A DNA stretch of 64,000 nt from Eublepharis macularius (taxonomy: Eukaryota > Chordata > Lepidosauria > Squamata > Eublepharidae). The stretch lies in the NCBI RefSeq assembly GCF_028583425.1, contig NC_072801.1, positions 58,915,766-58,979,765 of the forward strand. The letters are read 5' to 3'. Under the pieces are notes generated by a model, which had not been told where the DNA came from, ran no database searches, and saw only the letters and a list, made by a program, of their open reading frames with translations. The translations under genes were made by a program, and so were the position numbers. Each line of letters begins with the position of its first letter. Within the stretch, counting starts at the first letter, position 1. Shown in pieces: positions 432-61,796 of the stretch.

Positions 432-2582
432 TCTGTGCTCCTTATCCAAAAGAAGGCGAAGCATGCCAGACACCAAGTACTACTTTCTTTAGACTGATGG
501 TTTGGGACAACCAGGCAGCATTTGCCAAATGTCCATGTGCCCAAGGGTTGGAGTGCAGAAGTAAAAGGTAATGAGGACTTGTTCTGTGCTCCACCCCCAT
601 CAAAAGAATTCTCTTCCTTACTGTGCAACCTAGTTAGAGTTTCCAGGTCCCCTTACCGTCCGGGCAGGAGACAAAAGACCTGGCACTCTGCTTTTTAATT
701 GTCTTTGGTGCTGCACGATGACATCACTTCCTGGAAGTGATGTTGTTGTGCAGGCCTCGTGCTGCCTCTGAAAGTGCTCCTGCATTACACAGTGGGACAA
801 TTTTGGCCCACTATGGAGCGTGGGAGCGCTGCCAGGGCAGCGTGATAGGCCCTGGAGTGTTCCTGCACTCAGCAACAGGACAATTTTGGCCTGTTTAGGG
901 GCAAATAGGGCCCATTTGGGGACCAAATGGGCCTACTGTAGCGTGCAGGAGTGCACCATGCTACCTGGGAGCATGCCCTGGGAGGCATCCTCCCCTGCCT
1001 TTTCCCCTGTTGGGCAGGTAAGTAGTGGTGAGGGGTAGAGGGTGGGAGCAGGGGATCTGGATCCCCCACCCCCAGCGGGGGACTGGCAACCCTAAACCTA
1101 GTTCTAAAACCAACAATAGAAGGATCCCCTGAAAAGATCATAGTGTTGAAAGAGTCAGCCTGGACAGACACTGTCAAGATACTGGTTGCTGGTCTATCTC
1201 ATGTACAGGATGGTTCACAGGAGGAGGTGGCCATTAAAATAGCCATTGTTCTTTTGTTGTACAGTAAATTGTAAACCACTGAGCGCACAGAGAAGTATGG
1301 TGAAAATATTCCAAATAAATAAATAAAATTGCTGGACTGGAAGGGTATGGTTATAGGAATGTATAAGCACTATGTGAACAACCATTTTAGTTCTGCTTAC
1401 AGCTGATTGCATAAAAGCAGTGCCCACCCCATGGGCAAAAGCTTACTATTTGTTTACCCAAAAATCTCATTCAAGAAAGGAGCAATTTCTCCCTGCAACT
1501 GCCCTTCATGAACATTTTCTTCCTTGCCCCTCTCTTTTAAAATGGCTTCTATCACTTTAATTAGCTGATCCTCATTTATTCTCCTGGCTGTTGTGTTCCT
1601 GAATTAATCAGGCAGGGTGGATTTAATTACTGGTTTTCTTCTTTGCTAGAGCAGTGCTCATTATTTTTTTTTAATTTTATTTTTTATTATTGCAATTGTG
1701 TCATTGTGGTTGAGATCAAAAAGAAAAAAATGAGCAATTGCTCTGGCTGCAAAGAGGAAATCAGAATGGCAAAGCCCTCGCCCCCTCCTCCAACAGGAAG
1801 CAACTGAAGATAGTCCTGGGACTGTGGAAGAACCTTGCCATTCTGATCAGGAGAAGCAGGTGCTATAACTAGGGTTGCCAACCTCTAGGTTGGGCCTGGA
1901 GTCCCCCCAGAATTACAATTGCTCTCCAGGCTAAAGAGATCAGTTCCCTCCAGAGAAAATGGCAACTTTGGAGGTTGGGACTCTGTGGCATTACACCCCT
2001 GCTGAGTTCTCTCCCCTCCTCAGACTTCACCTTCTCCAAGCTCCATCCCCAAACCGCCAGGAATTTTCCAACCTGGAGTTGAACACCAACTACAACTGTG
2101 TTTTAAGTAAAGACCAACCAACCAACCACAAATCAAGTATGAAAAAGAAGGGAAAACAACACAGAAAACACTGGAAATCAGTTGGGAGGAAATGATACTT
2201 TTTAAAGTGTTTGACACTCATTCCACCTTGACACTGTGTTCCCTTTCCTTCTAGATATACAATTTCCACATGCGAAAAGCCAGAGGACGGTGTGGACATC
2301 AACAGTCTTGGAGAGCTGCTGCCTATCTTCCAGCCTATCCTGACAAACCTGGACAAAGAGGAGGCTTACTATGATGACTCTAGGCAAGATGGCCAGCTGG
2401 CAATAGTCAGCCTGCCCAAAGGCCCTTATTCTAAAGAAGATGCTGGGCTGAGTGAAGATTATGATGAGAAGAGGCTGTTTCCATGGGAGGAGGAAAGGAA
2501 TGATCCCAACCAATCAGATTTCCAGGAACTTGAGCAACTGGCCAACCAAATGGGACAGTACTTTGGACCAGGCTTTTACTAA
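432..2582 (+). CDS. DKK3-like: DKK3/soggy-family (Dickkopf-3-like) secreted protein, C-terminal two exons
   Basis: Two coding exons, 432-567 and 2255-2582 (stop TAA at 2580-2582), are joined by a GT/AG intron with matching phase (AG|A, Arg). Exon 1 could also start at 417, where a second acceptor keeps the same frame. The first exon carries a Dickkopf C-terminal (colipase-fold) cysteine pattern: VCAPYPKEGEAC and then KCPCAQGLEC. This aligns with VCTPLPVEGELC and RCPCASGLLC as I recall them from human DKK3. The second exon supplies one more Cys (STCEKPED) and an acidic tail with EELEQLANQM-like spacing that resembles the DKK3 C-terminal helix. DKK3-family proteins are secreted Wnt-pathway modulators or glycoproteins. 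The gene lies directly upstream of KASH5, where mammals have DKKL1, so it may be the DKKL1 ortholog that still has the cysteine domain. The signal peptide and first cysteine domain lie left of the window. It could instead be DKK3 itself; the family call is firm, the orthology is inference. Confidence 0.85.
635..1094. mobile_element. hAT-type MITE, 460 bp, with 8-bp target duplication
   Basis: The right end reads ...GGCAACCCTA and the left end TAGAGTTTCC, a worn inverted match. AACCTAGT flanks both sides (627-634 and 1095-1102), the 8-bp duplication typical of hAT transposons. The element is GC-rich, has no transposase and lies in the DKK3-like intron. Confidence 0.8.
1870..2088. mobile_element. 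hAT-type MITE of the AGGGTTGCCA family
   Basis: It starts TAGGGTTGCCAACC and has internal blocks (aattacaattg, gagatcagttccc, aaatggc, ggaattttcc) shared with the copies near 43.7, 49.0 and 53.8 kb. The right end is decayed. Flanks gctataac and actacaac may be the 8-bp duplication with two changes. Confidence 0.75.
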
Positions 2583-2829: not shown

Positions 2830-3980
2830 TTTTGACAGGAAGTGTAGGCGTCCTGTCTGGCTTGCTTGGCTCTAAGAGTTGATCTGGGTATGGCTGATGG
2901 AAGTTGTTCACTGATTGCTTCTCTGCTCGCCGCTTCCCCCAATGGCCCTCTTGCCCTCGAGGGTTCTGCTGGAACGGGCTGCTGGGCTGGGCTGGGCTGC
3001 CCGCAGGCGAGACAGACACACACACGTGCGCCTGAGAGAGGACCCCGCCGCACAGCCCTCTCAGCTCCCCAGCTCAAGCACAGCCTCATTGCAGGGACCG
3101 TCCACCTCCCCCCATCACAGCCACAGCCTCATCCTGCCACCACTGGGAGCAGGGGCCTCGGCCTGCAGCTCCATCAAGCGGTGTGCATGTTGGCCCCGTG
3201 GCCCTTTGGTGGGGGACAAGCTGCCCTCTGGGCCGGGTGTGCTCACTCGGCAGTTGCTCCATGCAGGCTGGGCGTGATCAGTTGGGCTGCCTTGTCCGGC
3301 CACCGCACCTTGGAGGTGGCCACCAAAGGAGCATGGCTCTGGCCGTGCTCCTGGCTCCTCTTGGCCCAGCAGCACGAGATGGCCGCCGGTAGGGTTGCCA
3401 GGATGTCACTTCTGGGAGTGACGTCATCACGCAGCCCCCGTTTAGGCGCTGATTGGGCCCGTTGTGGGCCCCTGCGGAGCACAGGAATGCTCCCACGCCC
3501 CACAGGGGCCCACAACAGGCCCAATCCGCGCCCGTTTTGGCACAGATTGGGTCCGTTTTGACGCGGATTGGGCCCATTTTGGACCCGTGGAGCGTGGGAG
3601 CGTTCCTGCGCTCCACAGGGGCCCACAACGGGCCCAATCCGTGCCAAAACGGACCCGATCCGTGCCAAAATGGGCGCGGATTGGGCCCATTTTGGCACGG
3701 ATTGGGCCCGTTGTGGGCCCCTGAGGAGCGCAAGAACGCTCCTGCGCTCCACAGGGGCCCCGATCCAGGCCAAAACAGGCCTGATCTTGGGGCTGCTGTG
3801 CGCGGGGGCGCACAGCACCACAGGGGGGCGTGCACGGAAGAGGCGCCCCCCCGCTGGCCAGGTAAGTGGGGGCGGGGGTGGGTGCCACCGGGGGTCTGGC
3901 AGCCCTAGCCACCGGGCAAGCCCACACCGCCCACCCCAGGCTGTGGCCCGACCCCACACAGCTGGGTTTGATAAACAGCA
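2830..3980. repeat. GC-rich block of unknown type, split by a MITE
   Basis: Strongly GC-rich DNA (about 2830-3389 and 3908-3980) lies in AT-rich surroundings and is interrupted by the hAT MITE at 3390-3907. Long open frames here follow from composition; they lack splice logic or a recognisable domain. It is probably a repeat, as its base composition is unlike its neighbours. Confidence 0.4.
3390..3907. mobile_element. hAT-type MITE, 518 bp, same family as 635-1094
   Basis: It begins TAGGGTTGCCAGGATGTCAC and ends CTGGCAGCCCTA, so the ends are inverted matches. Flanks gccgccgg (3382-3389) and gccaccgg (3908-3915) are an 8-bp duplication with one change. The interior holds several inverted and direct copies of a GGGCCC(A/G)TTTTGG-type motif and of a GGAGCG(C/T)-rich motif. 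Confidence 0.8.
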
Positions 3981-4559
3981 TCCTTACATGCCAGTAGTCT
4001 GATTCATTGTGCTGACAAATTATTCCCAAGTGAAGGCTATTTACTAGTTTGGTCCAAAGAGAACATTTGTTGAATCTGAAAATTCTCTCCTACTTTTTTA
4101 GACTTGAATCTATGCATTAGACAGGATCTACTAAATATCTAGAAATCTGGTGGAGACTTTTGCAGACTTTCCAACATATGTTAGAAGACTTATCCTATAA
4201 CATAATGCTTTTAGCGTGTTTCGGATGACGCACATTTATCCTAGAGCCCGTTGTATTATTTGCACAATGGGCTTTGTTTCTAGTATTAATTATAAAAATC
4301 TAATTAAAGTGTGTCTTCCTTCCCTGCATCCAGGATACATTTCTTAAAGAAATTATCAAAAGAGCTAGGACCATGAAAAAAAGCTTGCCAGAAGTTATTA
4401 AAGGTGTGATTAAAGAGGGGTGTCCTTAGATAAGTTTCTTACAAGGAAGTTGGTTAATGAGTTGCAAAGGAACAAGTGCAGGAAAATTTTCCAATTAAAA
4501 TATGATTAATGTAAACATTTAAACATTGTTAGCAAAATTAATGTTAGCAAAAGAAGGCA

Positions 4560-10800: not shown

Positions 10801-11605
10801 AGGTTAAAAGCTTACTCATCTTTCATTATAATTACCAAAACAAGAAAATGTTTATACTCAATGATTCTTCACACCTACCAGAATCCTATCTGACAAGCAG
10901 GATATCTCAGAGGAAGAATTTTGACACTGGATCAAGGCTTTCCTACTTGTTTACATGTTTTGTGTGCTATCAACTTTGAATGTATGCTCAGAACAAGATT
11001 TAATTAAATGGGGCCTAAAAATCCTTTAATACTTTCCTGCTCTTGGTGCAGCAACCATTTTCACACTCTTTTTGTCCTTTAATCACAAGGACTAAAAATT
11101 CATTTTTTAAAAAAGTAAATGTAAATTTTAAAATTTCATTGTTTCATCAAGAGGGTTCAGACCAATCATATCTCTTTTGAGCTACTGCCATGAGGTTGTT
11201 GTCCAGATGCCCAGAAAAAGCACACATTAATTGTCTTTAACAGTTAAAGCCAGAGACTGTTTAATTCCTTGGTTTTTTCTAGATGGGAGAAATGAAAGCA
11301 CAAACACTGTATAATGATAAATGAGTGGTGAGAGAAAGCAAACATGAGATCCAGCTCTAAATAATCTTTTATGCTTGGAGTCTTCTAGCTACCTATATGG
11401 TTCTGCTCATCTGGTTACAGGGGAGGTGTCCGTTTTCCGAATAATTGAATACTTACAGGAAATGACAGGGCAGAGTTGTGAAGACTGGAGGCTTCACTCT
11501 CTCTATATAAAACTGGATCCAGAAGAGAGAGGTGTTACTGTTGACTTTCCTACCTTCCATCGAATCATGAAGGACTGGATTGCAGATTGCCGACAAGATG
11601 GGTTC
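7834..11605 (+). CDS. KASH5: KASH5 EF-hand-like exons
   Basis: Exon 7834-7950 follows ...cttag and ends at AACAG|GTAGAA. Its frame contains VLKCTFNACDPEQTG, matching human ILNSTFEACDPQRTG. It joins through a split Gly codon to the exon at 11421, which reads GEVSVFRIIEYLQEMTGQ and DFPTFHRIMKDWIADC (human VLAYLEAVTGQ and MRDWIAAC). This paired EF-hand-like region is the part that binds dynein light intermediate chain in mammals. The canonical calcium-binding loop residues are not well kept, as in the mammalian protein. The donor is either 11601 (GG|GTTCGT) or 11605 (TTC|GTAATT). The first would splice in frame straight to 16443; the second would need an intervening exon. Translation may start at the ATG of MSASQYSEE (ACC before the ATG) or in an unseen upstream exon, because the frame is open to the exon edge. 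Confidence 0.93.
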
Positions 11606-14600
11606 GTAATTATAGCAGTTGTATACTTTGCCTTATGAATTATTTTGGTATACATGTTAAATTCCCTGGGAAAGGTAAGAATTGGTATTGTGTGATATGG
11701 GGAGTTAGGCATGGTGAATTTCTTCTTAGGATGATATTCCGAATTAGAGGTGTACAAATAGGGATCACAGATAACCTGCATGCATATAATTAGATCCTGC
11801 TTTTCTTGAGTCCTAGGGCAGGCTATTAATTTATATAAATAATTTAATTTGGGAAATGTAAAGTTGGCTATGAAGGAATGGACTTGGAAACCCTGTTTCC
11901 TTCAGGTTCCTGGCAGGTTGAAAAACTGAGAGCCAAGCTACAAGTGATGAATTACACTTGCCTGGCAAGTGAACAGACTCACGTGTATTCCACCCTGTTC
12001 TCTTGCCATTCACTTGCGCTCCACTTGATCAAGTGGAGCGCAAGTGAATGGCAAGTGAACAGGGTGGAATACACGTGAGTCTGTTCACTTGCCAGGCAAG
12101 TGTAATTCGCCACTTGTAGCTTGGCTCTCAGATACTGTTCCAAGTCTCCTTTCAGTTATGACACCCTTTCATCTCACCCCTAGGTAGATACCAAGATAGT
12201 AACTGCCACCACCAGCAAATCAAAGAATATCTCCCACTGAACAGATTTGCACATCCAGCACTCTCTACCTGTGTGGCTGTTTAGAGGCTCCATCTAGTAG
12301 CCGTGTCTCTCTCTTCAGTCTCATGGGGCTAGTGTGGAGACAATCAATTGCACTTTTGCAATTTTGAGCTATTACACTTCAGGAATGGTGAGCTCACCCA
12401 CTGCCCTTCCATGTTCCTGCCCTTCCAATAGCAGGAATAGACTTGGAGCATTCAAAACATAAGAAAGTTTAATAAATGAATAAAAAGAATGTCCATAGGC
12501 AAACATCAGGCTGAGGAAGACTACAAAGAAAAGATGAAAACATGGAATCCACTTTCCCTACACTTGGTACTTATCGTAAGTGATGGTTAATTAGGACCAG
12601 TTCAGCATTATGTTAGTTCTTGTAATTGGGACTTCTCCCCACTGTCCATTGTCTTGTGGACAAGATGGAGTCTGTAGGTAAAAATTTAGTACTTCACGTG
12701 GCTTGTGTTTATCCAAGGAGAAGAGCAAGATGGAATAGAGATTCTTCCTGGTGCCCTTTGGAGAGTCTCCCCCCGCCCCCGCCCCAGTTGTTCTGATCTT
12801 CCTGCTGCAAAGAGGAAGAGAGAACTTTCTAGCCATTTGGCTGTCTCTCTCTCTGTCCTTTTAGGTGTGACATTCTACAAAGGTGTGAGATGGTAAACCA
12901 TTGTCCTAGTTTGCCACCAGAGCTATTAGCAGAATGTGCTCTCTGCATTGGGACTTAATGGCTCATCCCTCAGCCCCCTCCTTTCTGCCAGCTATGAGTT
13001 TGCAGCTGGGTTCAACTCGTAAGCAGAATGTAGTCCCACTGGTTAAAATGTTGGAGTGAATTCTAATGTGGAGGGCATTTCTCCATAGTGGTCAAAGCAT
13101 AAACAATACAATTAATAATCTTTAGTATGCTTCGTTAGAAGATATTTGATATTAGGAGTTCAAGGAGATTTGAAGAGGCAACTATAATCTCCAATATACT
13201 GTAAAAATCTACAATTACTGTAAAAATAAAGTCACATAAAAACACAGTAACATGGCAACAGAAACTGGAAGAACCAGAAAAATTAACAGAAACAACAGCA
13301 GCAAATTTTAACAATATTAACACAATCAGTGTACCCAAGATGCTCTTTGAAAGATAACTGCCTTTGCTTAATGCCTAAAAGCCAGCAGAGATGGAACAAA
13401 ATGCACCCTTAGGAACAAAGTTCTCGAGTCTGTGTTACAGTTAAAAAGGCCCCATCCCATGAGGCTATCCACTGCATCCCAGATTATAAGGAAATATGGA
13501 AGGCTACATCAAGATGGCTTTTAAAAATGTTTGCAGTGTCTTATTCATGAATGTAAGTTTACTGGTAATGGAGAGTGAAAAGAATGATATAAATGAACAG
13601 AAAACTCTGGCAAACTATGCATGCTGCAATCCCAGAACTAAATTTCTCCTAGATAGAAACTGGAATTAAGGATGAGTGAAGCATCCACAAAGCAAAATTT
13701 TGGACTAATGGACAGAACAGAAAGGATCTGTTTATTCCTAATTTTGAGCCTCCATACCTGCTCTACTTCCAAGCTGCCCTTACAGCAGCTGCCACACTCT
13801 GTATGTGGAAATTTGATCGCCCAGCTTGGGAAAAACAAAATCTGTTTATTATATAATAATAATAAAAACATTTTGATGAAGTAATTAAAAATTTGTTATT
13901 CCTGAGTTTCTTTGTATTTTCCAATACCATACAGATTAGACAGATGTTTTCCGACATGTCAGTGGCAAGCAAATATTTCCCACCAGCACAAAGTAGAAGA
14001 AACTGTAAGAGGAAGTGGCAAATAAGGAAAGATCATCCAGTGTAGATTTATTTTCTCAGGCTGATAATAAGGGAGGAGAGATGGCTGTTAATCTGTGTTT
14101 TATCTAGGAGATTAGGCAGTACCATAAGAATTGGAAAAGTGTATAGGCCATATCTGCATGTTGCCATATGGTGGGTGCTTGTGCTGAAAAAAGAAAAGGA
14201 ACAAATGAAGAAAGAGAAAACATTGTCCTTAACTTTCTAAATATAGTGAGTTCAGTAATGTAACATCTTTTGGCGCAAAGTGTGATGCACTCGCTGCTCA
14301 GATGGCTTCATCTCTTGCGATTCTTAACATTTATTTAATGTTTTGTTATTTGTAATCTTCCTTTTCCCCTTCCTTTCACACTGAGACTACAGATGGTTTA
14401 CAGTATAAGTCAATACAATCAATGGCTAGGGCATTCACAATTGGAAACGGATTGCAGAAATTTGAAAACAAATATAAATCTGAATACAGAGCTGAAACAA
14501 TGCCAAAACAAAACAGCAATTTGACATCACATATTAATGCAGAAACAACCTAGTAGGAGCATACTTACAACAACACTCAATGCACATTACTGTAGTATAC

Positions 14601-17600
14601 AGTACCTGTTCCTTTACTAAAGTCTTGCTCTAAGCCATTTCTTACAGCACAGCTCTATTACTTGTGTAAAAAAGCCCTCCTGAATAATTCTGTTTAGCAT
14701 AGTTTTCAGTAAGCCAGGGGAGTAGGAGCTTTCCTTACCTTTTCAGGCAGGCCTTTTCACAACGTGGGAGCCACCACAGAGAATTTGCTTGTAAGGGCAG
14801 CTGTTGCTTTTGCCCATTTGCAGGGTGGTACCTGCAGAAGACCCTGTGCAGATGAGCGAAGCTGCTGTAGCAGACCATGGGGGGAGAGGTGGTCCTGCAG
14901 ATATGTGGGACCAAGGTCATGAAGGGCTTTGTCTATGATAGCCAAAACCTTTAACTGAGCCCAGTAACTGATGGGTAGCTAAAGGAGTATCTGAAGAATG
15001 GGAGTAATATGCATGCTCTATCCCTCACTCATGGTAAAAATCAGGCTATGGTGTTATGCACCAACTGGAGTCTCTGAAATGACTTTGAGGGGAGTAGTGA
15101 TTTTGAGGGGAGTGCATTATAGTAGTCTAGTCTCGATGTTACCATAGTGTGAATCCAGGTGGCCAGATTGGCTATGTTAAGGTCGGGGGCCATCTTCCAG
15201 GCTAGACTGAGTTGGAAGAAGGCCTTTTTTGCAGCTGAACTTGCTTCTTTAGCAGCAATGCTGGATCTAGTATAATCCCTAGTCTCTTAACCAAGTGCAC
15301 AATGGTCAACTGAACCCCATCAAAAGTGGGAAGTGTAGTGTTCTTCAAGATCCCTGCCTTCCCAACCAGCATCACTTCTGTTTTGTCCAGTTCATTTTCA
15401 GTTTGTTGACTTTCAGCTATTTGATCACAGCTGTCAGGTAGTGACTCAGGACCTCTATAGCATCATCAGGGGTTTTGGATACTGAGATACAGAGCTGGGT
15501 ATCTTTCACATATTGATGATATCCAATTCTGTAGCTACAAATGATTTCTCCTAAAGGCTTTACAAAGAGATTGAATAATGCTGAGGATAAGAATGCTCCT
15601 GATGGAACCTCGCAAGATAATTGCCACAATGAAAATAGTTTTCTGTTTTTGAAAAAGAGAGAACTGCCAAATTGATAGCATTCTCCCTCCCAAGATATGT
15701 ATGTGCCTGCTGATTAGTAAATAAAAAATAAACATGTTTTGGCATACTTGCAAAGCAGCTAGAAAGATTTTGGCTGAAATCGCATGTACACTAAAGAGCA
15801 CCAAGGTTGAGATATAATCTTAAATTAGCATTCCTATATGGCCATTAGTCCATACAATGAGGCACTATAAAATTGCCTTTCTGTTTTTCACATGTGTGCA
15901 CTGACAGTAGGAGAGGGACAGACAGTGGCACATGTGATTTCAATTTTTCACTTTTTTGGAGAGGACAGGAAGTCTTGCTGTGTTAGAAGAGGACAGGAAG
16001 TCTTGCTGTGTTAGAAGTATTTGCAGGGGACTCAACTAGTGGAAGTTTGTATGTACCAGCCCTTTAGGGCCAAAACAGAAATGATGCTAGAGGAATCTGT
16101 GTACAGATCTTCCTGATGTTTTAAAAAGAGAAATAGTAGTCCTACTGATGGGGCATTGATTCAGATATGGACTTCATTTTCCAAAAATCAATGTATTTAT
16201 TTGCTCCTTTCTAGAAAATCTTTCCCTTTTGTTGGCTTGAATCTGTCAGCAAGGCTTAACTATGTGTAGTGTCTGGAATGGTATTCAAGGTGGCATGTAC
16301 TAGTGCTGCACAAAGGGAACTAGCAAATAATAATGATGGTTGTGGTGTTCTAATTAATATTATTATCATAGAACATAAGTGGCAGTGGTGTGCATCTCTG
16401 AATTACCACCCTTTCCCTTATTTTTCCTTCTTCTAACAAAAGAGAAGAGGCAGTAGACCTGATGAACAACATCAAAGACTTGCAGCAGGGCAACAAACAG
16501 TTAGTCATGCAGAACATCAAATTGCAAAGGACTATCGAGGCTGCAGAAGAGCTCAATTCCCGACTTTCTGAGGAGATTGCTGAGCTGAAAGGAAAGCTGA
16601 GAAGGTGTATTAAGAGTGACTGACAAAAAGGGCCATTGATGAGGGCTAATCCAAGGAGGTAGAGGGCTCAGTAAAGAGGAAGAGGGCTGTTGGAAAGAGG
16701 AGGGTAAGATGCTTAGCTATATGAGGGTGTGCAGTTTTAAGAACTAGGTTGAAAGTAGTTTACAAATATAGGGTGTGCAGTTTTAAGAACTAGGTTGAAA
16801 GTAGTTTACAAATAGTTTACGAACAAGTACAGACCCTTGTAACCCCTGTTTACTCTATGTATTTCCCTCTCTCTGGCTCCATTCCCTTGTTTTTCCCCTA
16901 GGTACAATCCTTTCAATCAGTGGGTGGGATCCAACGTTTCTGGTCCATGGATGGAGCCTTCTTCCAGTTCAAGGAGCATTCTGTTGATGTAATATGCCTC
17001 TCCTACAAGAGGAAGCTCCTTGTGCTGGGTGAAGGAGGTCCTGCTATTAGCAGAACAGAACCTTTGGATCTACTAATTATGTTTTCAGGCTTGGACTGTG
17101 CTCCTTTCTTCCTAATTTTGACCTTCTGGGTTTGATCCCCAACTGCTTTTCTTGTCAGTTCCTTTGGTTGTTCCTGGAATAGCTCAAATATGATGAGATT
17201 TGAAATTCAGAGCATGGTCATTAAACATCCACTACCCTTTGTTACAGCACCCAGCAATCCCTGGAACAAGCTAGAACAGTGGCAAATGAATTAGAAGACA
17301 TGAAGTTTTTTTCCAAAAATTTGGAAGAGGAGAACAGCAAACTTCACACACAAAGCCGGCAGCTGGTGAGTGTTTCTGAATATTCACTTGTGGAGATGAT
17401 CCATAGACATGCCTCTTTTGTAAAGTGTAGGCACATTTGTCTAATTTTGCATCAAGTTATTGAAATTGCAACATTTTGTGGGAGTTGGAAGGTTTGGATT
17501 TTCTTCATAATTCTTGTGAAACTGTAGGTAGGCTCCTGTAGTGTTTCATGTAGCTGCACACATCTGAAAATGTGTTGTGTAAATATATTATCTATGCGAC

Positions 17601-40252: not shown

Positions 40253-42435
<2,183 letters not shown>

Positions 42436-54395: not shown

Positions 54396-57300
54396 ATGTG
54401 GCATTCTCGGTCCATGTTGTGTCTTTCTTTGCTCCTCTGTGGCCTCCTTGGGGAATGCTTTGGAATCGCTCTTGTGGTGAGTTAGACCAGCTCCTCTGAC
54501 CTTGATTTTATATTGTCCCTCTTCCTTCGTCAGGGGAAGGATGAAGGGAATTCTCCTGCTTCCCATCGCCCTCCAGGCCTAGTTCTCACTGCCACCCAGA
54601 GGCACCGGGGGGGGGGGGGGAGGGGGCTGGTTACTCCTTCTCCCCGCTCTTGTCAGAGAGGGCAGGCAGCCTCTGCGGGGAGAAGCAGTGGACGGACTAG
54701 GAGTTTCCAGGAGTGGGCAGTGGGCCTTGGCAGGTGCCATGTAATACCAGGCCCTAAAACCTTTCTGGGATCCTTCAAGATTTTTTGCACACCCCTTGAT
54801 CTTTTATGTCATGCATCTTTACGAGGTTACATAGGCCTCAAAGTCAGGAAGGTGGGGAATCCCTGCCACCATTTTGTATGTGCGTGGAAAATGATAAAGA
54901 GAGCAAGGGGAGGAGAGGGAGTTAAGTTCACTGGGACAGAAGTCGGAGGAGTCTTTAGTAACAAATTCAAAGGAGGTAACCATTGAAAGCAAATGGATTC
55001 ACGGGCAGGGCAAAAAATGTGCACATCAACTCCTGTAAATGCCTCTTGCCTCAAGCTGCTAACTTTCCCCCTGGCTGCTGTGTGTTTATCAGCAACTCAA
55101 TATGCAGACATTTGGAGGTGACCCTGTGCACCTTTGCACAATGCAAAGTCCTCCCTGCTGATTTCCACAAGCTAAGCTGTGGTTAAAGACACAAGGGTAG
55201 GGCCGTTTCCACATCCCCCCCCCCCGAAAAATGGTGCAAAACTTACAGAACGGCGCACCTTCATAGCGCGATTTTCCATCATGAATTTGCTTCGTGGCGC
55301 GTTTTCTGATGTTATCGCATCATGAAGCAAAGTCATGTTGGGAAATCGCGCCATGAAGTCACGTCATTCCGTAAGTTTTGCACCATTTTTCGGGAGGGGG
55401 AGAAGACGTGTAGAAGCGGCCTAGGCCAGATCTTAGTTTTTCCCCAGTCTGCTGACAAGTCTATTTTCCATGCTTAAGAAAAAGTCTGGACTACATGTTC
55501 CTTTAAGTGCCTAAGAGAATCTGAAAGGAGTGGGAAGGAGTGACACTCCACTCTCTCTAGTTGCTTTTCCCATCCATGAGACAAGCGATTGCCCCAGACT
55601 GCAATTTGAGGTGGGGCTGTGGCTCAGTGGTAGAGCATTTGCCTTGCATGGTGAAGGCCCCAGGTTCAATATCCAACACCTCCAGGTAAAGGATCTCAAA
55701 TAGTAGATGATGTGAAAGATCTCCACCCGAGACTCTGGAGAGCCACTGTCTGTCAGAGTAGACAACACCGATGTTCATAGACCAATAGTTTGTCTTGGTA
55801 TAAGGCAACTTCATGAGTTCACCATGGATATGAGCCATCTCCCATCTACTGGAACGAATGGACCAGGAGTCTGTTGGGTTGTGGAACTGGGCAACACTCC
55901 TATTCTGCTGATCTTGGATGCCAGACATTGGATTCCCTTCTGAATTTCAATACCTGGGTCTCTCTACACAAGACCTCTTACACGAGGATGCTCAAGTGTA
56001 AGGAGATGCAATGCTAGCCGGGAAGCATAGTTTAAAAAGACAGAGCAGGTAAAGATGCTCCTCAGAGGGTCTGTTAATTTCATCTCCCCTTCACTGGTGG
56101 GGGGCGGTCCAGAAGCTGAGCTCAGATGGCTCCATCACTCAGTTCCTCTCCCCTTCCTCTTGCAGGATCAGAGGTCATTTTTTAAATTCTCATTTGATGT
56201 GATACTGTGCAAATCCTGATTCTCCCTCCACCCTTTGCTCTGGATTAAAAAACTAGCATAATATTAGAGCATGAATTATGAACCTAATATCCCGCTCTTG
56301 TTCAAATTTCATCTGAGAATTGACATTAAATGCTTTCACTTAGGGGATAGTATTCTAGCAATACTAAGAAGTATTGTTCAATCTGTGTTGTGAACTTTCC
56401 GTTTCCTTTAATCCATGAGGACCTGCCTTAGTTTTACACAGTTGTGTGAAAATATGAAGCCGCTTTACGCATAGTGAGACTATTGTTCAGTCTAATCCAG
56501 TCTGACCAGCAGTAGATCTCAGGCATAAGGAGGTCTTTCCCATCATCAGTTACCTGATCCTTTGAATCTACCTTATACTGAATCACACCACCGATCTGTC
56601 AAGGCCAGTATTGTCTACTCAGACTAGCAGTGGCTCTCCAGGATCAAGGTAGAGGTCTTCCACGTCACCTACTGCCTGGTCCTTTTAACTGCAGATGCCA
56701 AGGAGCCAGCACCCATCCCCTTTCACTGACTGGACCTGCATGCAAAGTTTGCACTCTTCCACTTTCTTGGTTAGTTTAGGTTGCCAAATAGTTATGCCGA
56801 AAATAGGCTTTGAGTGTTCTTGGCTGCTTTTGGAGAGCTTGCTGTTCAGAAAACAGCTACAGGGGCTGGTTCAGAAGCTGGTGACCTTAGTTTGTTTCCC
56901 CAAACTAGTCAGTCTGCTACAATTGACCTTGCCTGTATTTGGGGGTAGGTGGGCTGGGGTGGCATAGACTGATGTTGTTATGGACAGACATCCACATGAC
57001 CAGGGATGTTGCCTGCGATTCCCCTCCATCCTTTTCATGAGACTAGGACAGGATGGGACTAATCTCATGGGACTTTCCTTGCCTCTTGCTCCTGTAGCCC
57101 AAGGATAAACGTGGCTGGACTCTGAACAGCGCTGGATACTTGCTGGGCCCTCGTAAGTCAATTCCGTCCAAAAGTATTTGGTTGGGGTGGGAAAGATGGA
57201 CAGATGTGGCCGAGGTGTATAGGAGGGGATCTTGGTAAGCAGTCGGCTACCAGAACATGGAAGGGGGAATGGAAGGCCAGGTCTCATCATTAGAGATTGA

Positions 57301-60300
57301 TGATACATTTTGGCTCAAGAAAGCTTATGCTGCAATAAAGACCACAGGACTCTTTGTTAGTGTGTTCAGTAGGCTTCGCAGGGTTCAGAAACTTGCAAAG
57401 TCTGTTTGGGCAGAGATAGGTAAAAAGAAACAAACGTGTATGCCAAAATTAGCCAGGCCTCTATCATACCATCTTGAATTCTCTCAATAACTGTTCTTCC
57501 ATAAATCACCAGGAAAGAGTCTCCCCCTTTTAAAAACCAAGCTTATTACAGACAGTCCAGACAGTCACCACTTCAGTAAGGATACCAAAGAGAGATTAAG
57601 ATCACAGTATAGTTATGCCCCATTATTGTTTGTTTAAGGCAGAGTCAGGGCAATTCCTGGTTCAATGTCCATGAACTAACTAGGCGGTCTTAAACAAGCT
57701 ACAAAAACTTTGGCCTCAGCCTCCCACCCTGTAATATGGGGATAATAACATTAGACGGACATGCGGCTATTCCTGAGATATTAGCCTATCTCCAACTGTT
57801 CCTATTTACCAAGGACAGTGTCTTTTTTTCTGGAATCCCCAAGTGTTCCCCAAGAAAAAGGACAGCATTTGACTGGGACACACTTTGTTAGTGTGAGTTC
57901 CTAAGGACGTCGTTCTTCAGGGTTCATCTCCCTCTCCAGGGATCCTAGAAGTTAAATCTCTGAATGGGGGAGTAGCTGCATCTTATCTCCAATGAGCATG
58001 CATGAACATTACATTAAGGCACCATGCAATGCAGAGCCTCACTTACTGGCAAGGCTCATCTTGAATTGCTGGTTGTAGGAATGCTGTACTGGTGTGTTTT
58101 GGACCTAAAAACCAAATAGGCTTTTGGTCTATTAAAGCAGAGCTGAAATAAAGGAACATAGTCAATAGAAAAGAGGCTTTAATAACATTCGATTTATATA
58201 CCGCCCTTCAGGATGACTTAACACCCACTCAGAGTGGTTTACAAAGTATGTTACTATTATCCCCACAACAAAACACCCTGTGAGGTGGGTGGGGCTGAGA
58301 GAGCTCCGAGATGCTGTGACTGGCCCAAGGTCACCCAGCTGGCTTCAAGTGGAAGAGTGAGGAATCAAACCTGGTTCTCCAGATTAGAGTCCTGCGCTCT
58401 TAGCCACTACACCAAACTGGCTCTCAGTGTTCATGGGGGAGGGGAAGGGCATGGGGGAGATGTTGCAAGCATCTCAGTGTCTTCATCTGTAAAATTCTGG
58501 AGGATACGTAGGGTTCACAAAGCATACTGTAGTATAGTGTTGTATAGATGCTAAATAGGGGTGTGCGCTTCAGGTTCCCAATTTGGGGGAAAAACCCGAA
58601 TCAGGCCTGATTAGTAAAGATTCGGTATTTCCAAATCAGGGCCAGTATAATGGCCCCGATTCGGAAATACCAAATCAAAGCTTCTTGAAGTGATCCAGAT
58701 TGCTTTGGGTCACTTCGGGGCTTATTTAAAGGCTCCCTCCTACACCACACCACTTACCTTGGACATCCTGGTGGTGGTGGTGCAGGTGGCAGAGGCTGTG
58801 GCTGCGGCCTTCCCCGTGATGGAGGCGCTGGCTGTGGCCTTCCCTGCTGCCCAGCTGTCCACTGTGGAGGCGGAAGCGGCGGCATGAGTGGTGGAGGTGC
58901 CGGTTCCGGCCTTCGCCGCTGCCCTGCTGGCTGCCATGGAGGCACCTGCTCCGGCCTTCCCTGCTGCAGAGGAGCCGACTCCTGCCTTTGGGACAGGTAA
59001 GTGGGGTTGGAGTTGGGGGAAGGGGGCTCAGTGGGGGGCTGGGGGGCTTGGTGATAGTTTCCCTCCTCACTTCGGTATGCTCCGAATAATTACGAAGCAT
59101 ACTGAAGCAATTCCAATAACCCGAATCTGAAGCGGCTTGCCACTTCGGGTTTCAGGTTATTCCAAATATTTCACTAGTGCACACCCCTAATGCTAAATAA
59201 TATTCACAGCAATTTTGGAATAGGTTGAGTGATAAAATGAAACCTTTGTGTTTCTATGAAATATACCTTGAACCAGTTTTTGAAAGCCTCTGTGTTGCTT
59301 TTTGCTGTTTCTAAAAGCTTGGCCTTTACAAAACAGCTCTTTTGATTTCAGAGGTGGGCTCCAGCCCTCCTCTTTAATGTTTGGCAGGGGTCTGTTGGTC
59401 ATCACCCCAATTCTCTTGCCAAAAATAATCTTGAGCTCTGATATTGCACATTTTCAAAGGTCATTGCTTGGAGGATCAATTTACTCACTAGCCTTTGACC
59501 AGGATTGTTCTGAAATATGTTATCAACTGATCAAAAAGTTGACAATGAGATTCAGTGCAGCATAGTGGCTAGAGTGTTGGATTAGGATCTGGGAGACCCA
59601 GGTTCGAATCCTCTCTCTGCCATGGAAGCTTGCTGGGTAACCTTGGGCCACTCACACTCTCTCAGCTTAATCTACTTCATAGGGTTGTTGTGCGGATAAA
59701 ATGAAGGAAAGGAGAATTATGTAAGCCACCTTGGTTCCCCATTGGGACGAAAAGTGGGGAATAAATAATTTTTTAAAAAGGTTGTTGTGAGGATAAAAGA
59801 GAGGAGAGGAGAATGATGTAAGTCACTCTGGGTCCCCTTTGGGGAGAAAGGCAAGGTATAAATGAAGTAGATAAATAAATAAATAGCAGGCTGTATACGG
59901 TTTGGCGCTCTGGGGGTGGGGCGTGTTCAGCAAAGTGCTGGGAGATCCATGAATGCGTCTCTTGAGTGGGTCTCCTAATTAATAAATAGCAGCTGGGGGG
60001 TGGAATTTGGATCGGGGCCATGGCATGAGGGAGGGGAGTTTAACCTCAATCAACCCCCTGGAGCTGTTAGTCCCACTGGGGAAACTAAACTGGTTGGCTA
60101 TCTGTTTTTCCTTCTAGATGGCCAAGTGGCAGCTCCACGGGCCTTTGTGAGGTTGTGGGAAAGGTATAGGGGTGGGGAAAGGGAGTCTCTTGCTGCAGGA
60201 CAATAAGGTTTAAAAAGGCATCATAAGATCTGTTCAGAGTTTCCCAACCAGCATCACATCAGGGCCTGCTCTGACCCTCTTTTGTGTGCATGTGCCTACA

Positions 60301-61796
60301 TGTGGACCAAAAACAAGATACACTCTCCCCCTACATACACTTTGAAGTTTTTAACTTCTAGAGACATAAAAAGGGACTGAACCCTGGAGGATGTCAGCAC
60401 TTGTAGTGCTTATAAAATATTTCAAAGATACCCCCAGCAGGCAAATCGGGACAAACGGAGGACAATGACCTCCCCTTTTGTACAGTGTACAAACGTTTTC
60501 CTTACTGGGGGGAAGGGTTATTCTTAATGTGCCCAGGATTCCAGACGAGCAGCTCTTTCTAAGCCTGGTTTAATCCAGCTTTTTCTTCCCTTCCAATTCC
60601 CAAAGCAGATGCCCACCAGACGCTGACAGATAAAGGAGGCCTAGCTGGTAAGCGAGAAGCTATGGAGGACTTGTATTCATTAGGGCAGGATTCCTTTGGT
60701 GAGCACTCCCTCTTGACCCCCTCTCCTCAAAACTTGCCTGCTCCGTTACGTCCTCTCTGCCCTTCAATTTCATTTCTCTCCTCTTGCAGCCGCAGCTGCT
60801 GCTCGCCCTGCCGAAGACAGCACCCTCCAAACCCTGATGGATTTTCTCTCTTTCCTGCACCTTCGAGGTGAGGACTTTTGCCAGGTTCTGTGGGAAGAGA
60901 ATAGGGAGAGGGGCTCATGGCCTGAGAAACCGACTTCTGAACTGGGAGGGGTGTAGATTATTAGGGCGTGTTTGCACCAGGACATTTTCACGGCAAGCTG
61001 CCCCAATAGTTTGTACGGCCCCATGCATCCTCCCTGTTAGGAATCTGCTTCTTCTTTTGCTGCAAAGTTAGTGCCTCTCAAAATGAGAACTAACTTCCCA
61101 GTGATACCCATCACTGGTATAAATGGCAATTTGTGTGTGTAAAGTGCTGTGAAGTTGCAACTGGCGTATGGCAACCCCGTAGGATTTTCAAGACAACAGA
61201 TGAGCAGAGGTGGTTTGCCAACGCCCGCCTCTGCATGGTGGCCCTGGACTTCCTTGGTGGTCTCCCATCTGAGTATTACTCAGGACCCGCCCTGCTTGGC
61301 TTCAAAGATCTCGTGAGATCATCAGGCTAGCCTGGGCCATCTAGGTCGGGGCATCAATGGCAGTTTGGATAAATGTATTGTAGTCGCCTCTGTCTGGGCT
61401 GCTGGCCCTCCATTCTTTCGCAATCTTTTATCAGGGCTTTCTTAATTAAAACCTGCCTTTCTGCATGTCCACAAACAATGTGTATTTGGGCTTTCAAATC
61501 TCCCCCCAATTCTGGAGTGGGTCACTGCTTGCAAAAAGTGCGTATGCAGACCGCGATTGCATAAGAAAGGAAAGTTTCAGTGGAGCTGCTGTGAGCACGG
61601 TATGCGCTTCAGATATGTTAGAGCAAAAGATTCTGGGAGCCAGGGATTCCTATGTGAGGAAATGGGGGTCCTGCTGAGATCCTGACAACTCATTCCTTCC
61701 TTCCTCCCCCCCCCCCCAACCCAATTTTCTTTCACAGGCCAAGGAACTGTTTCCCACCTGCCTCTCCCACTGGTGGAAGAATCCATTCAACAGTAG
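54396..61796 (+). CDS. GAL-like: Galanin-family neuropeptide precursor (galanin paralog), complete
   Basis: Five coding exons: 54396-54476, 57098-57152, 60609-60698, 60790-60867 and 61738-61796 (TAG), giving 120 residues (human galanin has 123). The ATG is the first codon of its exon, right after ctctctctcag. Residues 1-23 form a signal peptide (LCLSLLLCGLLG core). PKDKR (28-32) is followed by GWTLNSAGYLLGPH and AHQTLTDKGGLA-GKR: a 26-residue peptide with a Gly amidation donor and dibasic cleavage sites on both sides. The galanin-specific exon break inside His14 (C|AT) is kept. The C-terminal half resembles GMAP: LMDFLSFLHLR against human IIEFLSFLHLK. Galanin-family peptides act on G-protein-coupled GALR receptors in brain and gut. 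The N-terminal 15 residues match galanin exactly, while the middle is shortened by three residues. GALP lacks this GMAP signature, so a galanin paralog is the best reading. Ordinary GAL remains possible, but linkage to KASH5 speaks against it. Confidence 0.93.
55199..55423. mobile_element. Fold-back MITE, about 225 bp
   Basis: Inverted ends tagggccg / cggccta and longer pairing of gaaaaatggtgcaaaactta with taagttttgcaccatttttc. The inner part is rich in gcgcgattttcc-type blocks on both arms. Confidence 0.85.
55612..55830 (+). mobile_element. tRNA-derived SINE (GTGGCTCAGTGG type), well preserved
   Basis: ggggctgtggctcagtggta gagca is the A-box part; ccccaggttcaatatcc the B-box part. The body ends tggtataaggcaacttcatg. 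In the galanin-like gene intron. Confidence 0.88.
56480..56700 (-). mobile_element. Two overlapping reversed SINE body fragments
   Basis: Two reversed pieces of the GTGGCTCAGTGG-type SINE body lie in a row (gatctcaggcataaggaggt... and ttgtctactcagactagcag, agaggtcttccacgtcacc). Confidence 0.6.
58172..58424 (-). mobile_element. tRNA-derived SINE, well preserved
   Basis: Reversed full copy: atttatataccgcccttcag to cttagccactacaccaaact, with the B box as ggaatcaaacctgg. Confidence 0.9.
58556..59189. mobile_element. hAT-type MITE, 634 bp, with exact 8-bp duplication
   Basis: Ends TAGGGGTGTGC and GCACACCCCTA. ATGCTAAA flanks it at 58548-58555 and 59190-59197 and fits the hAT pattern nTnnnnAn. 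Subterminal parts carry repeated cttcgg/ccgaat motifs. The middle (58756-58985) is a GC-rich minisatellite with ggtggtggt, gctgtggc and gccttcc units. No transposase. Confidence 0.93.
59553..59880 (+). mobile_element. tRNA-derived SINE with duplicated tail
   Basis: gcatagtggctagagtgttg (A box), caggttcgaatcc (B box), ttgttgtgcggataaaatga, gagaattatgtaagccacct. The tail unit (gttgttgtgaggataaaag ... gtaagtcactctgggtcc) is then repeated before (AAATA)n. Confidence 0.88.
61128..61352 (-). mobile_element. 5S-rRNA-derived SINE, best copy
   Basis: Reversed, 61250-61352 reads gatctcacgagatctttgaa, gccaagcagggcgggtcctg and agtaatactcagatgggaga, close to 5S rRNA (gatctcg..., agcagggtcgg, gtacttggatgggagacc). 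The body toward 61128 is a non-5S tail ending in cttcacagcactttacacac. In the last intron of the galanin-like gene. Confidence 0.85.

Follow-up and report, generated by a model that had tools for sequence, protein, structure and literature searches.

An intact GAL2 gene in the gecko Eublepharis macularius and its predicted 26-residue amidated galanin

A stretch of 64,000 nucleotides from Eublepharis macularius (assembly GCF_028583425.1, contig NC_072801.1, positions 58,915,766 to 58,979,765 of the forward strand), referred to here as the window and numbered from its first letter, carries an intact galanin gene with five coding exons. The gene is a member of GAL2, a vertebrate gene that is already known, and not a new kind of gene. 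Its exon structure, its open frame and the letters of its processing sites are read directly from the DNA, and in a phylogenetic tree it falls in the GAL2 clade. We consider it probable, at roughly 85%, that the precursor is cut at KR and GKR to give a 26-residue amide that likely activates galanin receptors, with minor forms likely arising from tandem acceptors at exon 3.

Gene structure and predicted precursor

GAL2 lies at 54396-61796 on the forward (+) strand of the window, and its five coding exons join into an open reading frame of 363 nt, encoding 120 residues and a stop. This extent, first given in a preliminary description made from the sequence, is exact, with the ATG at the start and the last base of the TAG at the end. 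All of the exon borders are AG...GT (GT-AG introns) and the frame contains neither a stop nor a break. The features of the gene are the following.

54396..54476, +, coding exon 1: ATG and hydrophobic leader MWHSRSMLCLSLLLCGLLGECFGIALV
57098..57152, +, coding exon 2: PKDKR and peptide residues 1-13 GWTLNSAGYLLGP; ends one base into codon 14
57107..57112, +, Lys-Arg site preceding the mature peptide: read from the sequence, with predicted cleavage
57113..57152, +, mature peptide, part 1 (40 nt): read from the sequence; the Pfam Galanin match covers residues 33-58
60609..60698, +, coding exon 3 of the 26-residue form: remainder of the peptide, GKR and start of the GMAP region
60609..60646, +, mature peptide, part 2: AT, then AHQTLTDKGGLA
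60647..60655, +, GKR, amidation donor and dibasic site: read from the sequence, with predicted amidation
60790..60867, +, coding exon 4, GMAP: Pfam GMAP match
60843..60863, +, GMAP core FLSFLHL within exon 4: read from the sequence
61738..61796, +, coding exon 5: stop TAG, last base at 61796

Coding exon 1 begins right behind a pyrimidine tract and an AG; therefore, a non-coding exon on its 5' side is likely. The predicted precursor runs from the hydrophobic leader through PKDKR, the 26-residue peptide and GKR to a tail with FLSFLHL, so that the mature peptide with its flanking sites reads KR-GWTLNSAGYLLGPHAHQTLTDKGGLA-GKR. The dibasic KR before the peptide and the GKR after it are both present in the window, and processing at these sites is predicted from their letters. 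The window protein matches Pfam Galanin (PF01296) with 47.5 bits against a cut-off of 20.5 (E 1.8e-12) and Pfam GMAP (PF06540) with 29.7 bits against a cut-off of 25 (E 7.1e-07), and the GMAP core noted earlier is found in exon 4. The exon 2/3 junction splits codon 14 (C/AT, His), as had been described; the junction in human GAL is presumably in codon 14 as well.

Compared with human galanin in PDB entries 8dj4 and 7wq3, residues 1-15 of the window peptide are identical and are followed by a three-residue gap, which confirms both the shared N-terminus and the shortening by three residues that had been noticed at the outset. The stretch given there as the divergent C-terminal part, AHQTLTDKGGLA, is real, but it starts one residue too early, at Ala15, which is still identical to galanin.

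Relationship to other galanin genes

A protein search with the window precursor gave 674 relatives at E <= 1, of which the best 120 were used, and a second search with a GAL1 profile gave 731 relatives, of which the best 120 were used and 110 were new. Statements about records in this text refer to these listed matches. The closest are geckos, namely Heteronotia binoei (88% over the whole length), Sphaerodactylus (85-87%), Paroedura (87%), Euleptes (87%) and Gekko (81%), followed by other squamates, amphibians, lungfish, turtles, Alligator, sturgeon, Polypterus and sharks. The window sequence itself is new, with at most 88% identity to any listed record. Many of the relatives are titled "galanin peptides-like", and one Xenopus laevis record is titled "galanin prepropeptide, gene 2 L homeolog". 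The members from Xenopus laevis, Heteronotia, Sphaerodactylus and Gekko share with the window gene a common clade, a KDKR-type site before GWTL, GKR, a GMAP tail and, in the bony-vertebrate members, 26 residues. The window peptide has HQTL where most amphibian members have HRTL. Earlier descriptions of the gene exist for Xenopus and coelacanth. It was called GALP by Kim et al. 2014, according to passages of PMC9174643, PMC4131245 and PMC4992253, and it also goes under the name GAL2 (PMC4992253, in the section concerned).

The GAL1-profile matches comprise canonical GAL (GAL1) of birds, turtles, crocodilians, amphibians, marsupials, fishes and seven squamate species, the geckos Eublepharis and Sphaerodactylus among them. 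Canonical GAL shares GWTLNSAGYLLGPHA, GKR and the GMAP core with the window gene but forms a separate clade. Six of the seven squamate species also have a listed GAL2 (Sphaerodactylus, Sceloporus, Hemicordylus, Phrynocephalus, Zootoca and Pogona). In the first four of these, the contigs listed for the two genes are of different size (for instance 40.2 Mb and 183.2 Mb in Sphaerodactylus).

A phylogeny was run on 46 chosen rows, unrooted and with no shark GAL1. A branch with 100/100 support parts GAL1 from GAL2, the GAL2 side spans sharks to lizards, and the window gene is in GAL2 and not in the GAL1 clade. Together with the six squamate species that have both genes, this bears out the early proposal of a galanin paralogue rather than a GAL orthologue. 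In an earlier tree that included GALP rows, GAL2 was again one side of a branch at 100/100. The membership of the sharks in GAL2 rests on the 100/100 branch. Holding GAL1 and the sharks on one side was not rejected, with an approximately unbiased test value (p-AU) of 0.376 in the GALP-including tree and of 0.496 in a later test. These values are no test of shark membership, since both splits fit one tree, and they only allow the sharks to be the first branch of GAL2.

Peptide length across the family

The preliminary description had treated a paralogue with a shortened peptide as unusual. This is not supported, because many vertebrates have the same gene annotated under the title "galanin peptides-like" and the 26-residue form is found in 40 of the 120 records of the first search, all 40 lying among the 82 that are not named as squamates. 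These 40 come from amphibians, lungfish, turtles, Alligator, Polypterus, sturgeon, Amia and one further source. Another 37 of the 82 have 29 residues (eight sharks, the remainder canonical GAL), and the last five are insert forms or are without a readable site. On the canonical side, 54 of the 110 records first listed by the GAL1-profile search are 29 residues long, and 33 are insert forms with 53 residues. The length of 26 residues is thus ordinary for bony-vertebrate GAL2, and it is old. The shark GAL2 peptide reads HAANGHRSL or similar in this part, and since it keeps 29 residues, the three-residue loss likely occurred early in bony vertebrates.

Tandem acceptors at exon 3

The interval 60486-60609 contains seven in-frame AGs. 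The precursor stays open with four of them and meets a stop with the other three. Three of the open acceptors (60609, 60606 and 60579) match forms that are annotated in other squamates.

Exon start 60609, +, acceptor for the 26-residue form: pyrimidines 11/16
60606..60608, +, CAG of an AAGCAG NAGNAG tandem acceptor: the upstream AG gives a 27-residue form ...GPPDAHQ...; pyrimidines 14/16
60579..60608, +, extra coding stretch from the further upstream acceptor 60579: 36-residue form ...GPPFSSLPIPKADAHQ...; pyrimidines 9/16

The 26 type accounts for 10 of the 38 listed squamate GAL2 records and the 27 type for 7; a further 19 are long forms and 2 are others. Both the 26 and 27 types are recorded in Pantherophis and Sphaerodactylus, and the 26 type is recorded with a long form in Sceloporus, Rhineura, Hemicordylus, Anolis carolinensis and Pogona. 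The insert of the 36-residue form in the window also occurs, unchanged, in a Gekko japonicus record. Residues 14-16 are Pro-Asp-Ala in the 27-residue form and Pro-Phe-Ser in the 36-residue form. The open frame of the long form was considered as a sign of function and rejected; stop codons do not occur within a pyrimidine tract, and an open frame is therefore to be expected in any case.

By comparison, the 53-residue GAL insert forms of birds, turtles, amphibians and fishes receive their extra residues at the same point, after GP. Their inserts are of about 24 residues and of unlike sequence, whereas those of the window GAL2 are of 1 or 10 residues. In fishes and birds, a 72-bp in-frame insertion into GAL through alternative splicing is reported in part of PMC4992253. 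For a galanin with NAGNAG, nothing was found in the open-access literature, a search with subscription papers largely outside its reach.

Proposed processing and receptor action

By analogy with the galanin family, the product of the window GAL2 would be secreted, cleaved, amidated and active at receptors. Cleavage at KR and GKR would free a 26-residue amidated galanin from the precursor. According to the relevant passages of PMC8924211, truncation of galanin to residue 16 leaves binding and potency at both GAL1R and GAL2R intact, truncation to residue 13 spares GAL2R and notably lowers activity at GAL1R, and galanin residues 4, 13 and 16 contact an aromatic patch of GAL1R. Because galanin(1-16) retains its potency at both receptors in that account, the missing C-terminal residues should not matter for binding. 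The 26-residue form, with residues 1-15 kept and His16, would act on GALR1 and GALR2, perhaps less on GALR1. The receptor-binding end is intact, as the preliminary description had stated, and the GALR activity that it expected is likely, judging from these letters.

Acceptors 60606 and 60579 likely lead to minor forms of 27 and 36 residues, in which residues 1-13 are kept and His14-Ala15-His16, a stretch reported to count at GALR1 and not at GALR2, are replaced. These forms would favour GALR2 over GALR1, in the manner of galanin(1-13).

Changes in squamate canonical GAL and in some lizard GAL2

The exact string GWTLNSAGYLLGP is absent from 19 of the 230 listed galanin-family records. Nine of these 19 are all of the listed squamate canonical GAL records (seven species, with no snakes among them), in which position 4 is Met in eight and Val in one. 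All nine have also lost two residues (H(A/V)IDRVFNDK), and their peptide reads GWT(M/V)NSAGYLLGPH(A/V)IDRVFNDK..., with 27 residues. Leu4 is kept in the listed canonical GAL of Sphenodon, turtles, crocodilians and birds. The other 10 of the 19 are six lacertid or agamid GAL2 records with His for Pro13, three from Engystomops and one from Emys. In squamate GAL2, GWTLNSAGYLLG, Leu4 included, is kept in all 38 listed records. No report of GWTMNSAGYLLGP or of squamate galanin was found in the open-access literature, with subscription papers largely outside the reach of this search.

In the lacertid GAL2 records (Zootoca, Podarcis, Lacerta), the GKR site reads HKR and Pro13 is replaced by His. Because of the change to HKR, amidation may be lost in lacertid GAL2.

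Weighing of alternative explanations

Several observations weigh against the reading of the window gene as GAL2 with a 26-residue receptor-active amide and minor splice forms. At residue 16, the window peptide carries His where galanin has a Val packed against GAL1R, and the 26-residue form too may therefore be weaker at GALR1. At exon 3, the acceptor of the 36-residue form (60579) has a weak pyrimidine tract (9/16), a fourth upstream acceptor (60564) is open as well and matches no annotated form seen, and the squamate isoforms come from database entries in which RNA support is not visible. The trees contain no shark GAL1, and in the GALP-including tree GAL1 is not one side of a branch, with GALP rows among its fish rows.

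An explanation that deserves some weight, though we lean against it, is that the window gene corresponds, as its orthologue in reptiles, to mammalian GALP. In this view, "GAL2" and "GALP" would be a single gene, and GALP would have lost both the amidated end and the GMAP core at a later time. We take KASH5 and GALP both to be on human 19q, which we count in favour of this orthology. Human GALP retains DGKRE after the core, and the spacer that follows has a GAL2-like length in the alignment. As related in portions of PMC9174643 and PMC4131245, Kim et al. 2014 assigned GALP and KISS3 together to a single one of four 2R linkage groups and put them on the same chromosome in both coelacanth and Xenopus. 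On the other hand, PMC4992253 argues, in the part concerned, that the gene is GAL2 and not GALP, with GMAP and synteny lacking. Placental GALP has the core GWTLNSAGYLLGP in common with the window gene but has extra residues before it (such as APAHRGRG) and no recognisable GMAP core, and its rows in the alignment lack the KR that stands directly before GWTL in the window gene. GALP is described in PMC9174643, in the passage seen here, as a non-amidated 60-residue peptide. The GALP tail scores 12.1 against a GAL2 profile, a value equalled by 13 of 100 column shuffles. Against GAL1 the tail profile score is 16.3, reached by none of 100 shuffles. This match, though contrary to a GAL2 origin, is not taken as homology because it covers only 10 columns of non-corresponding tail parts (KAIDGLP on GALDNLP). 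The GALP branch, with a length of 3.28, is too long to place. The free tree put GALP among ray-finned GAL1, and a tree constrained to keep GAL1 together had a likelihood 4.04 higher (p-AU 0.854). As a separate observation, "LPQKADQ" of GALP resembles "LPKADAHQ" of squamates, a candidate read-through of an old acceptor; it is a resemblance only.

The remaining explanations concern the origin and integrity of the gene. A decaying copy without function is very improbable. The lacertid HKR and the His for Pro13 of lacertid and agamid records speak for it, and because of these changes constraint may be relaxed in some lizards, but the window gene has no stop or frame break, its splice sites are canonical and it is 81-88% identical to its gecko relatives. 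We regard it as extremely improbable that the window gene is canonical GAL at a moved position and the sole galanin gene of the genome, because the tree puts it in GAL2 and because canonical GAL is listed for seven squamate species, including the geckos Eublepharis and Sphaerodactylus, with six of the seven also having a listed GAL2. Virtually no credence is given to a recent duplicate of GAL specific to squamates or geckos. Such an origin would fit the 15 N-terminal residues identical to galanin; however, GAL2 from sharks to lizards lies on one side of the 100/100 branch. The likelihood falls by 63.3 log units (p-AU 0.000125) when squamate GAL1 and GAL2 are forced into one clade, which rejects a squamate-only duplication under the tree model used.

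Genomic neighbourhood

The preliminary description had placed a RAS gene and KASH5 near the galanin gene. Both are present; the former is a KRASBL-like gene and the latter is recognised by its Pfam domains.

40256..42390, -, KRASBL-type RAS gene: pieces 42280-42390, 41722-41901, 40776-40934 and 40256-40363; ends KCVIL
11441..17365, +, KASH5: EF-hand piece 11441-11602; coiled-coil pieces 16441-16602 and 17258-17365

The KRASBL-type gene is open, consists of four pieces and lies about 12 kb from GAL2. It has a KRAS-like G domain, a polybasic tail and a CVIL ending (predicted geranylgeranylation), and all 20 of its matches among solved sequences at 1e-110 or better are named KRas. KRASBL is defined, in the section of PMC9882654 concerned, by a polybasic tail and a CaaX ending in L or F, and is reported there as absent from mammals and birds. 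The RAS neighbour of GAL2 has each of these features, with a KRAS-like G domain, a polybasic tail and a CaaX that ends in L. Since there is no GAL2-type bird or mammal record among the best 120 of 674 relatives and KRASBL is reported absent from the same groups, the two genes may have been lost together.

KASH5 is identified by Pfam EF-hand_9 and KASH_CCD, both above cut-off, and the gene likely continues further right. Pieces of a Cys-rich, likely secreted protein are found at 434-2579 (+), with CAPYPKEGEACQ...CPCAQGLECRSKR followed by an acidic tail. Its Pfam matches to Prokineticin, Dickkopf and colipase are all sub-threshold. Presumably it resembles DKK3-type Cys domains, and we take DKKL1 to adjoin KASH5 in human. 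The GC-rich interval 3246-3983 holds short 21-bp tandem arrays (3530-3582, 3623-3670 and 3673-3716) and is open in several frames on both strands; it looks like a minisatellite-like repeat rather than a gene. A crude scan for kisspeptin and spexin motifs in all six frames of the window detected neither.

Implications

The odd short galanin of the window is identified as the product of an old second galanin gene that has been retained in lizards, and the gene bears on a published disagreement, namely whether GAL2 and mammalian GALP are one gene or not. The NAGNAG choice at exon 3 could show whether a tiny splice shift alters the receptor preference of a neuropeptide. A wider proposal, which we put forward as speculative and rather unlikely, is that the two genes have swapped roles in squamates. 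GAL would have lost Leu4, which is nearly invariant elsewhere, and shrunk to 27 residues, while GAL2 would have retained the classical core and acquired a splice dial at exon 3 that exchanges residues 14-16, the stretch of GALR1-specific contacts, with the 26-residue form as an agonist of GALR1 and GALR2 and the forms of 27 and about 36 residues leaning towards GALR2. A further question is whether squamates rely on GAL2 for classical galanin signalling after GAL lost Leu4.

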